Shown here: positions 24,303 to 27,954 of the stretch, one piece after another
Numbering within the stretch: the first letter of the stretch is position 1
Layout: every line of letters starts with the position of its first letter
Source: Planktothrix agardhii NIES-204
GTDB taxonomy: Bacteria > Cyanobacteriota > Cyanobacteriia > Cyanobacteriales > Microcoleaceae
Direction of reading: 5' to 3'
NCBI GenBank assembly: GCA_003609755.1
Contig: AP017991.1
Span: 2,435,501 to 2,499,500, forward strand
DNA length: 64,000 nucleotides
The notes under the pieces: model-generated
Database searches by the model: none
What the model was told of the DNA's origin: nothing
The model's input: only the letters and a program-made list of their open reading frames with translations
Made by a program: the position numbers and the translations under genes

Positions 24303-24317
24303 ATGAAAGTCCTGGTT
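24303..24317 (+). CDS. sqdB: sqdB exon 1 (codons 1-5)
   Basis: ATG AAA GTC CTG GTT encodes MKVLV, the start of the Rossmann strand of SqdB, and stops abruptly at GTGCG, the 5' consensus of group II introns. Joining it in phase 0 to 26812 restores [20 protein letters not shown]. It has no meaning without exon 2. Confidence 0.88.
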
Positions 24318-24924
24318 GTGCGATTCGTTTAGCCTAAAGTAAGCCGAAAGGGTTACGGGACGGTTAGCCTAGCTGCTAAGGCAGTTAGTGACAACTGATT
24401 ACATTTATGGGTGAACAGCCGTGGCTGTAAGTCCCATCCCTCAAGTGCTGAGGTGAAAGCATAACCCCTAGTTTGTTTGGGTAGCAACCAACAGGTTAAA
24501 GCGGGGTTAAAAGGTAGAACTACTGGAAGCCTAATCTGGTAAATACCGAGCAAAAAGTCCATGCGTAGCGTAAGCAAAGATGTGTCTAAACCATCGTAAT
24601 TTTCAATGGTGTAATGGCTGAATCATAATCAATAGTTATGATTAACACCAAGCCAAAAGGCAAGGATAGGGAATAAGCAACTGACCGGTTGACTTATAAG
24701 CACAAGCCCATAAACCCGGTGGATAGCATCACGCTAAAGACTTTAAACAAATGTGTAATCGGAACGAAGTAACTCTTGCATAGCTCTGAAATGGTCAAAC
24801 AAGTCAGTAAGTAGCTAACGAACGTTATGCAAGAAAGGGATGGTGTTAAAAGCGAATGCCTTGAGTAATATCAAGGATATGCTGACAAACACTCGGTAAC
24901 TTCAAAGAAATTAAGTAAGTAGCA

Positions 24925-26703
24925 ATGGATATGTCTAAAACGCTGATTAAAACTCAGACGGTGGAATGGAAAGACCTCAACTGGCGAAAGCTAGAAAAGG
25001 TAACTTTCAAGTTGCAAAAACGAATATTTCAAGCGAGTGAACGAGGCGATGTTAAGGCAGTTCGCAAACTTCAGAAAACCCTGATTAATTCCTGGTCAGC
25101 TAAATGTATTGCAGTCAGAAGGGTGACACAAGATAACCAAGGAAAAAATACAGCCGGAATAGATGGTGTTAAATCATTAACTCCAGAGCAACGTATGAAC
25201 TTGGTAGGTAAGTTAAAGTTAACCAATAAGGTGAAGCAAACTCGTAGAGTGCATATTCCCAAACCTGGTACAACCGAAACTCCCCCCCAAGCCCCCCGTG
25301 CACGGGGGGTTTGGGGGGGCGGAATACTTACAATAAATGACCGCGCATTGCAAGCATTAGTCAAACTAGCAATGGAACCAGAATGGGAAGCTAAATTTGA
25401 GCCAAACAGTTACGGTTTCAGACCAGGACGCTCATGTCACGATGCGATTGACGCAATATTTAAAAGCATCAATACCAAGTCAAAATATGTTCTTGATGCT
25501 GATATTGCCAAATGTTTTGATCGCATAAACCATAAAGCATTAATTGACAAAATAAACACATACCCAACATTAAGCCGACTAATTAAATTATGGCTAAAAG
25601 CAGGGTATTGTGACGGAAAAGAATTGTTTCCTACCAATGAAGGCACACCACAAGGGGGGATTATTTCACCCCTACTGGCAAATATTGCCTTACATGGTAT
25701 GGAAGAAAGAGTTAAGCAGTACGCAGAAACTCTAAAAGGGGGAAAACGACTTAATCGAACAGCCCTTAGTCTAATCCGTTATGCTGATGATTTCGTAATA
25801 ATGCACGAAGATTTAAGCGTTGTTAAGAAATGTCAAGAAATAATAGCTGATTGGTTAGGTGATATGGGTTTGGAATTAAAACCAAGTAAGACAAAATTAA
25901 CCCATACTCTCAATGAAATTGATGGAAATGTTGGGTTTGAGTTCCTAGGATTTCATATACAACAGTACAAAGTAGGTAACTACCTAAGTGCCAAGAATCC
26001 CTATGGAAAAATACTAGGTTTTAATACATTAATCACACCCTCAAAAGCCAAAATCAAGACTCATCTTGCAAAAATAGCTGAAGTAATAGATGCCCATAAG
26101 ACCGCCCCACAAGCTGCTTTAATTAGCAGGTTAAATCCTATTATCAGGGGTTGGTCAAACTATTACTCAACAGTTGTTAGTAAAGAAACTTTCTCAAAAG
26201 TTGATCATCTAACATACAACAAGTTGAGAGCTTGGGCAAGAAACAGGGGAAAAGGGAACATCAATAAAGACAAATACTGGAGAACAGTAGGAGACAGAAA
26301 TTGGTGTTTCAGTACAGAGGACGGAATAGAATTAACTACCCATAACAGCACGCCAATTATAAGGCATACAAAAGTTAAGGGTGAGGCTAGTCCGTTCAAT
26401 GGAGACTGGATTTACTGGAGTAAACGACGAGGAGAATACCCCGAAACTCCCTCAAGAGTTTCTAAATTAATTAAACGTCAAAAGGGTATTTGTCCTGAAT
26501 GCGGTCTGTATTTTTCAAGTACAGATATTGTGGAAGTTGACCATATTAAACCAAAATCATTAGGTGGAAAAGACACTTACAATAATCTTCAACTTCTACA
26601 CAAACATTGCCACGACACAAAAACGGCTAAGGACGGTTCATCAACAAAGAAAGGATTAATACCCCTAGAACAAGTTGCGAACTACGAAATGAATCCGTTT
26701 TGA
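24925..26703 (+). CDS. ltrA: Group II intron-encoded reverse transcriptase/maturase with HNH endonuclease, altered RT region
   Basis: The 592-aa protein shows an N-terminal RT0 region, RT core with FEPNSYGFRPGRSCHDAI, catalytic YADD (286-289), GTPQGGIISPLLANIALHGM, a maturase X domain (about 375-470) and a C-terminal HNH (CPEC at 523, EVDHIKPKSLGGKDTYNNLQ). Intact for RT, maturase and endonuclease at first sight, but residues 119-132 are encoded by a G/C palindromic repeat. These replace the usual KRPLGIP of RT motif 1 with TPPQAPRARGVWGGGI, so RT activity is doubtful. The frame is kept. The symbol is generic for such proteins. Confidence 0.88.
   Translation: MDMSKTLIKTQTVEWKDLNWRKLEKVTFKLQKRIFQASERGDVKAVRKLQKTLINSWSAKCIAVRRVTQDNQGKNTAGIDGVKSLTPEQRMNLVGKLKLTNKVKQTRRVHIPKPGTTETPPQAPRARGVWGGGILTINDRALQALVKLAMEPEWEAKFEPNSYGFRPGRSCHDAIDAIFKSINTKSKYVLDADIAKCFDRINHKALIDKINTYPTLSRLIKLWLKAGYCDGKELFPTNEGTPQGGIISPLLANIALHGMEERVKQYAETLKGGKRLNRTALSLIRYADDFVIMHEDLSVVKKCQEIIADWLGDMGLELKPSKTKLTHTLNEIDGNVGFEFLGFHIQQYKVGNYLSAKNPYGKILGFNTLITPSKAKIKTHLAKIAEVIDAHKTAPQAALISRLNPIIRGWSNYYSTVVSKETFSKVDHLTYNKLRAWARNRGKGNINKDKYWRTVGDRNWCFSTEDGIELTTHNSTPIIRHTKVKGEASPFNGDWIYWSKRRGEYPETPSRVSKLIKRQKGICPECGLYFSSTDIVEVDHIKPKSLGGKDTYNNLQLLHKHCHDTKTAKDGSSTKKGLIPLEQVANYEMNPF
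25282..25319. repeat. 38-bp near-perfect palindrome inside the intron RT gene
   Basis: Seven C, AAG, six C, GTGCAC, six G, TTT, seven G: perfect dyad symmetry about 25300/25301 except one base pair. The same GTGCAC-centred palindrome forms the core of the MITE-like repeats at 14707-14843 and 48265-48394. Confidence 0.85.
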
Positions 26704-26735
26704 ATCGTACCTATAACAAAGGTGGAGTTATCAAG

Positions 26736-26769
26736 GAGCCGTGTGAGGCGAAAGTTTCATGCACGGTTC
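26736..26769 (+). ncRNA. Group II intron domain V
   Basis: GAGCCGTGTG (26736 onward) pairs with the distal CACGGTTC; the AGC triad and GAAA-type tip (GCGAAAGT) are visible. Domain V is the catalytic metal-binding hairpin of the ribozyme. It lies 32 bp after the maturase stop and is followed by domain VI. Confidence 0.85.
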
Positions 26770-26811
26770 TGAAGGAGAGGTAGGAGTGGTAACGCTCCTA
26801 TCGACTCTAAC

Positions 26812-27954
26812 ATTGGTGGTGATGGCTACTGCGGTTGGGCGACAGCATTGCATTTGTCCAACCGTGGCTATGAAGTCGGTATTCTGGATAGTTTAGTTCG
26901 ACGTTACTGGGATCAACAACTGTGTATTGATACACTAACTCCGATTGCTCCAATTCAGCAACGAATTCAGCGTTGGAAAGATTTAACAGGAAAATCAATT
27001 GACCTATTTATTGGGGATATTAACAACTACGATTTCCTGATTAAAAGTTTACTAAAGTTTGAACCGGAAGCGATTATTCACTTCGGAGAACAGCGTTCTG
27101 CACCCTTCTCAATGATTGACAGAGAACACGCTGTCCTGACCCAAACTAACAACGTAATTGGCAACCTAAATTTATTGTATGCCATGCGGGAACATTTTCC
27201 TAATTGTCATTTGGTGAAGTTAGGAACGATGGGAGAATATGGAACCCCCAATATTGATATTGAGGAAGGATATATTACCATCGAACATAACGGTCGTAAG
27301 GATACTTTACCCTATCCTAAACAACCGGGCAGTTTCTATCATTTATCCAAAGTTCATGACAGCCATAATATCCATTTTGCTTGTAAAATTTGGGGTCTGA
27401 GGGCGACGGATTTAAACCAAGGTGTGGTTTATGGGGTGTTAACAGAAGAAACCGGGATGGATGAGTTGTTAATTAATCGTCTCGACTATGATGGCGTTTT
27501 TGGAACGGCGTTAAACCGTTTCTGTATTCAAGCCGCCATTGGTCATCCGTTAACGGTGTATGGAAAAGGCGGACAAACTAGAGCCTTCTTGGATATTCGG
27601 GATACGGTACGATGTATCGAATTAGCATTAGAAAATCCGGCGGATTCTGGACAATTCCGGGTGTTTAATCAGTTTACCGAATTGCATAGTGTTGGTGACT
27701 TAGCCATGATGGTGAAAAAAGCGGGAATTGCTTTAGGGTTAGATGTGGAAATCGAGAATATTCCTAATCCTCGTGTTGAATTAGAAGATCATTATTTCAA
27801 CGCTAAAAATACTAATCTATTGGATTTAGGATTACAACCTCATTTTCTCTCTGATTCTTTGTTAGATTCTCTGTTGAATTTTGCCATTAAGTATAAGAAT
27901 CGGGTTGATAATACCCAAATTATGCCCAAAGTCTTATGGCGTAATCCCGGTTAA
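26812..27954 (+). CDS. sqdB: UDP-sulfoquinovose synthase SqdB, exon 2
   Basis: This exon encodes residues 6-385 of SqdB, the NAD-dependent enzyme that makes UDP-sulfoquinovose from UDP-glucose and sulfite for the sulfolipid SQDG of thylakoids. Seen: [20 protein letters not shown] (nucleotide binding, completed by MKVLV of exon 1), [11 protein letters not shown], and the YHLSK catalytic Tyr/Lys motif. The enzyme is made only if the intron is spliced, because exon 1 supplies the start codon. A TTG at 26848 could initiate a product lacking the Rossmann glycines, probably inactive. The gene ends in a 12-bp stem terminator. Confidence 0.95.

Follow-up and report, generated by a model that had tools for sequence, protein, structure and literature searches.

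We analysed a 64,000-nt stretch of the Planktothrix agardhii NIES-204 genome (contig AP017991.1, 2,435,501-2,499,500, forward strand; hereafter the window), in which sqdB, the gene for UDP-sulfoquinovose synthase, is split by a group II intron at 24303-27954 of the window. Our analysis suggests that a group IIB retro-intron, a mobile element, entered sqdB in sense orientation behind codon 5, in one Planktothrix lineage where no other full copy of the gene was found, and that the gene would now depend on splicing. We give a probability of about 0.82 to this reading, in which the intron would be a tolerated selfish element that imposes a splicing dependence and not a demonstrated regulator. We infer the transcription, splicing and splicing efficiency of sqdB from the sequence.

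Results

Anatomy of the split gene

The features of the locus, in window positions and all on the + strand, are as follows.

24303..24317: sqdB exon 1, ATGAAAGTCCTGGTT, start codon and codons 2-5 (MKVLV); contiguous with exon 2 at empty sites
24304..24309: IBS2a (24304) and IBS2 (24305-24309), overlapping the T and the G of the sqdB start codon; from covariation and a pairing count
24312..24317: IBS1, CTGGTT, the final six bases of exon 1; from covariation and a pairing count
24318..26811: group IIB intron, GTGCG...CTAAC, exactly 2494 bp, sense orientation within sqdB
24598..24604: EBS2a (24598) and EBS2, TTTTC (24600-24604), in a domain I loop; from covariation
24683..24688: EBS1, GACCGG, with four Watson-Crick and two G-U pairs to IBS1
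24724: EBS3, T, whose partner is the A that is base 1 of exon 2; from covariation
24925..26703: intron-encoded protein (IEP), 592 aa, with RVT_N, RVT_1 with YADD, a GIIM maturase domain and HNH
25280..25320: palindromic repeat, about 41 bp, in frame in the fingers of the reverse transcriptase (RT), in place of RPL in RPLGIPT
26734..26811: domains V and VI, from an Rfam match and the fold
26812..27954: sqdB exon 2, UDP-sulfoquinovose synthase, 380 codons and stop

EBS and IBS stand for the exon-binding sites of the intron and the intron-binding sites of the exons. The best solved relative of exon 2 is SQD1 (1qrr/1i24), aligned over residues 1-379 with an E value of 2.4e-192. The gene scores 459.8 bits against NCBIfam NF041015, below the cut-off of 575 bits, and the uninterrupted orthologue of another genome of the same species (G082) is likewise below it, at 466.2 bits. 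sqdB is without signs of decay in its sequence: its ratio of nonsynonymous to synonymous substitution rates (dN/dS) against G082 is 0.043, and the 381 exon 2 codons include four that are unlike those of all eight other Planktothrix, one of them with an amino-acid change.

Empty sites and copy number

A preliminary description of this DNA had placed a 2494-bp intron after codon 5, the exact removal of which gives MKVLV-IGGDGY. This is borne out to the base, as the site is empty in all eight other Planktothrix genomes examined that have a full-length sqdB, one of them of the same species. MKVLV-IGGDGY is unbroken in the seven full-length loci from the genus (7/7, L010-L016). In G082, 68 of 68 bases are identical over the upstream region and exon 1, with exon 2 following directly, and the alignment of the two neighbourhoods breaks precisely at 24317/26812. 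A further genome of the genus (G004) holds sqdB residues 112-380 only, and the insertion site is unreadable there. In a draw of 386 genomes from the phylum, 188 have an sqdB match; among the matches listed (150, hand count), 116 are close orthologues (at least 78% identity), and of these the window's genome alone is without residues 1-5, its match starting at residue 6. The exact pattern of exon 1 followed by the intron start had no match in a contig collection from which the own genome was possibly excluded, a search that would miss other intron types.

These data reject the idea of an intron common to the species. Because the same-species genome is without it, the dependence of sqdB on splicing would be a trait of the strain or lineage and not species-wide. 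No donor copy was found in 61 genomes of the taxonomic family, where the closest intron heads are 89% alike; the two other full copies in the own genome are 83% alike to the sqdB intron.

The genome search for a second intact sqdB that the preliminary description had proposed found, in the 99.99% complete, 5-contig assembly, one full copy and, besides it, only a 73-codon sqdB 3′ fragment at about window 29964-30186.

Integrity of the ribozyme

The intron looks splice-competent. Its boundaries, GTGCG...CTAAC, fit the 5′ GUGYG / 3′ AY rule. The Rfam Intron_gpII model (RF00029) matches with 64.3 bits (cut-off 40) and the match ends exactly at 26811, while the 3′ end (26730-26811) folds into the two expected hairpins with a folding z of -7.4. 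The folded end leaves a GA unpaired at 26803-26804, and A 26804, 7 nt upstream of the 3′ splice site, is probably the branch point. The last 12 intron bases are common to 29 other copies (not all independent). Over its first 560 nt the window copy is off-consensus at 4 of 296 conserved columns, where the median copy departs at 3 of about 296, and over its last 125 nt at none of 77.

Contacts between intron and exons were sought by covariation between the aligned heads of 41 copies, the window copy included, and the exon positions, no prior model of the intron entering the comparison. A duplicate (the second intron of L104) was removed beforehand, and near-duplicates remain among the copies, so that the counts are not independent events. 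The strongest covariation joins intron positions 366-371 with exon positions -1 to -6, 283-287 with -9 to -13, and 407 with +1. The last of these pairs (EBS3) in 27 of 31 copies, for 12.0 expected. This register is identical to that of TeI3c, where EBS1 contacts -1 to -6, EBS2 -9 to -13 and EBS3 +1 (PMC3706431). The pattern of subgroup IIB is present, with EBS1-IBS1, EBS2-IBS2 and EBS3-IBS3 pairings and EBS3 apart from EBS1. An extra covariation links intron position 281 with exon position -14, which pair in 30 of 42 copies (12.4 expected), or in 24 of 36 with one row per loop (9.6 expected); for this test of the EBS2 loop, the 4 of 46 heads whose loop has 9 bases were set aside. The pairing fits the EBS2a-IBS2a contact described for IIB1/IIB2 introns in PMC9294222, compared with which it is seen here as natural covariation, the exon partner in sqdB being the T of the start codon.

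At the sqdB site all 13 contacts can pair (10 Watson-Crick and 3 G-U). A scan of both window strands (127,958 positions) found this only twice, once at the sqdB site itself, where the base taken as following the site was intron base 1, which pairs too. The EBS sets of 40 other introns score at most 10 on the sqdB site. Such a fit to the own site is not universal in the family, since 3 of the 31 copies having both ends score 8 or less. Because 29 other copies end alike and because the full set of contacts is so rare in the window, we consider chance excluded as an explanation.

Consequence for SqdB

Read through without splicing, the sqdB frame gives MKVLVVRFV and then a stop, a product of nine residues. 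An alternative start that would bypass splicing was considered and rejected: no ATG, GTG or TTG precedes 26848 in the exon 2 frame, and initiation at the TTG found there, the first usual start in this frame, would drop the nucleotide-binding motif GGDGYCG. With one full copy of the gene, a nine-residue unspliced frame and no start that spares the motif, it is therefore well supported, as far as the sequence can tell, that a functional SqdB in NIES-204 would require splicing. The claim of the preliminary description that sqdB relies on group II splicing thus stands as to dependence, for this strain or lineage. That description had also named a strain population lacking the intron as evidence against its view, and this was found in part, in the form of the same-species genome.

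The steps would most likely be the following. The insertion site would have been recognised by base pairing of the intron RNA. After transcription, the ribozyme would act with its own RT/maturase, EBS1 and EBS2 holding the end of exon 1 and EBS3 holding base 1 of exon 2. The intron would then exit as a lariat and the exons would be joined, the junction reading ATGAAAGTCCTGGTT-ATTGGTGG and MKVLVIGGDGY being restored. Without this reaction no functional SqdB would be possible.

The intron-encoded protein

The IEP has its full set of domains, scoring 147 bits for RVT_1, 74 bits for GIIM, 55 bits for HNH and 311 bits for TIGR04416 (cut-off 300). Its best solved relative is chain C of 6me0 (E 1.2e-99), which we take to be the T. 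elongatus intron T.el4h. With a pairwise dN/dS of 0.11-0.14 against nine relatives, the maturase frame is under constraint. The RPLGIPT motif of most relatives is not intact in the window IEP, where the palindromic repeat has turned RPL into PPQAPRARGVWGG or nearly so, and the same kind of replacement is found in the IEPs of three relatives at other insertion sites (L090, L101 and L132). Either the insert is tolerated in the four proteins, or they would have kept the maturase without RT function. An AlphaFold model of the IEP is uninformative at the insert (pLDDT, the per-residue confidence score, below 50 at residues 100-134). A single origin of the insert is not supported, as its carriers do not form one clade in a weakly supported IEP tree of close relatives only. 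An intact RPLGIPT was not an essential criterion for a mobile group II intron with an IEP, and the marks of mobility, empty-site alleles and dispersed copies, are present. The repeat itself occurs at no fewer than 36 further genomic places outside introns (40 of 179 candidates scored). It was also seen in frame in exon 2 of ctaC at another locus (L134), as PPQAPRERGVGG.

Relatives of the intron in other host genes

The intron family occupies 36 distinct complete insertion sites (hand count). Among those in frames of at least 100 aa, 18 are in sense and 4 in antisense orientation (p 0.004), or 16 and 4 with nrdB counted once (p 0.012); the other 14 sites lie in no such frame. Hosts named through exon 2 alone include acetate-CoA ligase (acs), cytochrome oxidase subunit II (ctaC), an RlmL-like methyltransferase, PdxJ, HemE, a UbiH-like hydroxylase, Cas5 and NrdB. 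Most of these exon 2 fragments fall below the full-length cut-offs of NCBIfam, PdxJ being above.

Two of these hosts deserve attention. In one genome (G001) the sole hemE found is interrupted, with residues 2-30 and 29-337 flanking the intron; in another (G003) the sole pdxJ found starts at residue 11 and is split by a relative of the sqdB intron. The loci are given below; both genes are intact in the window's genome and in G082.

G001:C3:170763-174276 (L138): hemE split by the intron
G003:C26 (L224): pdxJ split by the intron

HemE is required for heme and chlorophyll. With the one hemE found in G001 interrupted, this requirement argues that members of the intron family splice in vivo. Together, the split hemE and pdxJ, the 18 sense to 4 antisense sites and the lean towards gene starts described below suggest that these introns splice efficiently in vivo.

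Domain V/VI matches number 4 in the window's genome (one at C1:293942) and 15 in G082. The nrdB gene of NIES-204 (L088, C1:798500-808000) holds a relative of the sqdB intron and two group I introns that pass the Rfam cut-off. A third group I match there is just under the cut-off (46.4 of 50 bits), beside a frame resembling by eye a homing endonuclease. Across the Planktothrix genomes, group II introns were seen in nrdB at four sites, one of them solely by the 5′ end. Elsewhere in the own genome, a truncated copy (intron bases 1-545; L107, C1:961854-964300) breaks a gene after codon 19 that we call XisH-like by eye, and a 308-base intron fragment lies at C1:1551474.

Discussion

What weighs for and against a splicing-dependent sqdB

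The preferred reading, a functional sqdB that depends on a tolerated selfish intron, has to be weighed against several points. Of the six EBS1-IBS1 pairs, two are G-U. A conserved RT motif is partly overwritten by the palindromic insert, and RT activity may have been lost as a result. An undecayed sqdB could be the outcome of a very recent insertion. The sense bias could stem from the insertion mode of the intron and, like the core-gene argument, it concerns relatives and not the sqdB copy. All of these weigh against our interpretation.

A rival view is that the insertion killed sqdB, splicing being too poor to matter and the strain living without sulfolipid. Sulfolipid (sulfoquinovosyldiacylglycerol) is needed by Synechocystis 6803 and not by Synechococcus 7942, and sqdB is dispensable in Synechococcus PCC 7942, according to PMC3311599. 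A recently killed gene would not yet show decay, and the partly disrupted RT motif would be in keeping with a failing intron. We nevertheless regard a dead sqdB as quite unlikely, given that the ribozyme and its exon contacts are intact, that the IEP frame is intact and constrained, that sqdB is undecayed and that relatives of the intron have been kept in the sole copies found of hemE and pdxJ in two genomes.

The preliminary description went further and held that splicing would control sulfolipid synthesis. This is not supported, as no result bears on regulation, and regulatory elements beyond the intron itself were not searched for. That the sqdB start codon lies inside the intron-bound segment could set splicing and initiation in competition, as a physiological switch would need. 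The absence of the intron from the same-species genome and from seven other full-length Planktothrix sqdB genes speaks against any conserved regulatory use, and we find such a switch very improbable. Least credible of all is the explanation that intronless sqdB alleles persist among the many chromosome copies that cyanobacteria carry, hidden by an assembly that is one consensus, the dependence being merely apparent: the assembly holds one full sqdB locus, and empty copies, carrying a matching target, would be prone to conversion by a mobile intron.

Gene starts and a possible conflict with translation

Among the 18 in-gene sense sites, nine are within the first 14% of the host gene, a threshold picked after viewing the data. 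By the Kolmogorov-Smirnov test the lean towards gene starts has p 0.011 over the whole set, 0.025 if sqdB is left out and 0.002 if nrdB enters only once. Positions were estimated by hand for two nrdB sites, ctaC, GST, the rlmL length and the L090 gene length, and others are lower bounds from cut frames. The lean is suggestive.

The start codon of sqdB is at -15 to -13, its T and G being the partners of EBS2a and EBS2. In a signal-peptide-like gene (L090) the start is at -11 to -9, entirely within IBS2. Four of the five relatives retrieved have this start in common (MLTS or MLSS ahead of KLSRSG); our script did not match the fifth, L203. The host start codon thus lies in the ribozyme-bound segment in two (sqdB and L090) of the three full-length family members of the own genome. 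Moreover, 36 of 41 copies have stops in all three frames by intron base 26, a property that is only mildly special, as 15% of the 25-base windows in the first 600 bases also stop in all three frames.

These observations could be taken further, to the idea that the family prefers the 5′ ends of core genes and that a start codon held by EBS2 gates translation until splicing has occurred. A folded precursor would be untranslatable and a ribosome-bound precursor unable to fold, translation starting after splicing; the early three-frame stops would keep stray ribosomes off the ribozyme. The pattern of start codons and stops fits, without proving it, a conflict between ribosome and ribozyme folding that splicing would resolve, and we consider the full gating model rather unlikely. 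This conflict is directly measurable in the sqdB system.

Relation to known introns

Cyanobacterial ribonucleotide reductase genes are known to be laden with introns. The nrdB of NIES-204 fits this pattern, in contrast to sqdB, which holds a single intron that is absent from the same-species genome. Group II introns inside cyanobacterial housekeeping genes have already been published; CL2 introns are almost exclusively cyanobacterial (PMC4424553), and a survey gives P. agardhii_A fewer than 10 group II introns (PMC8919778). In T. elongatus few introns lie within genes (PMC2882425), whereas the sqdB intron sits in a conserved metabolic gene. Its start-proximal insertion has a precedent in that species, in which TeI3a-e separate two closely spaced start codons of an RT frame (same source). 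Compared to the TeI3c/TeI4 group IIB introns of T. elongatus, the sqdB IEP bears a palindromic insert in the RT fingers.

Another parallel is Trichodesmium erythraeum, where splicing in vivo is said to be documented for 17 group II introns (PMC4649490). Like the sqdB intron, these are cyanobacterial group II introns inside conserved protein-coding genes; 10 of the 17 are without an intron ORF (open reading frame) and one is a twintron, and sqdB is unnamed in the part of this source that was available. No report of sqdB as a group II intron host was found in the open-access library searched. The element is of a known kind, and sqdB is a new host for it. The earlier judgement that such a host is unusual holds as far as that library goes, and is tempered by the presence of the same family in hemE, pdxJ, nrdB, acs and other genes and by the published introns in housekeeping genes. 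Finally, NIES-204 and the intronless same-species genome offer a natural test of the cost of a group II intron to its host.

Region downstream of sqdB

A variable cargo segment follows sqdB (window 28016-32190), split by the second copy of the sqdB 3′ tail. Partial copies of the sqdB tail occur about 2-3 kb downstream of sqdB in four of nine Planktothrix genomes, two of them with 113 bp at 78%. This sequence arrangement suggests that the sqdB 3′ end may be a cargo hotspot. In the window, the segment includes a 599-aa frame (28076-29875) with many repeats of the QQRELEL type, which has no Pfam, NCBIfam or PADLOC match at E 0.001. It also includes an AAA_21 ATPase adjoining a DUF4276 protein (30277-32189), with weak PADLOC matches to AriA/AbiLi and HEC-01B, possibly an anti-phage pair.

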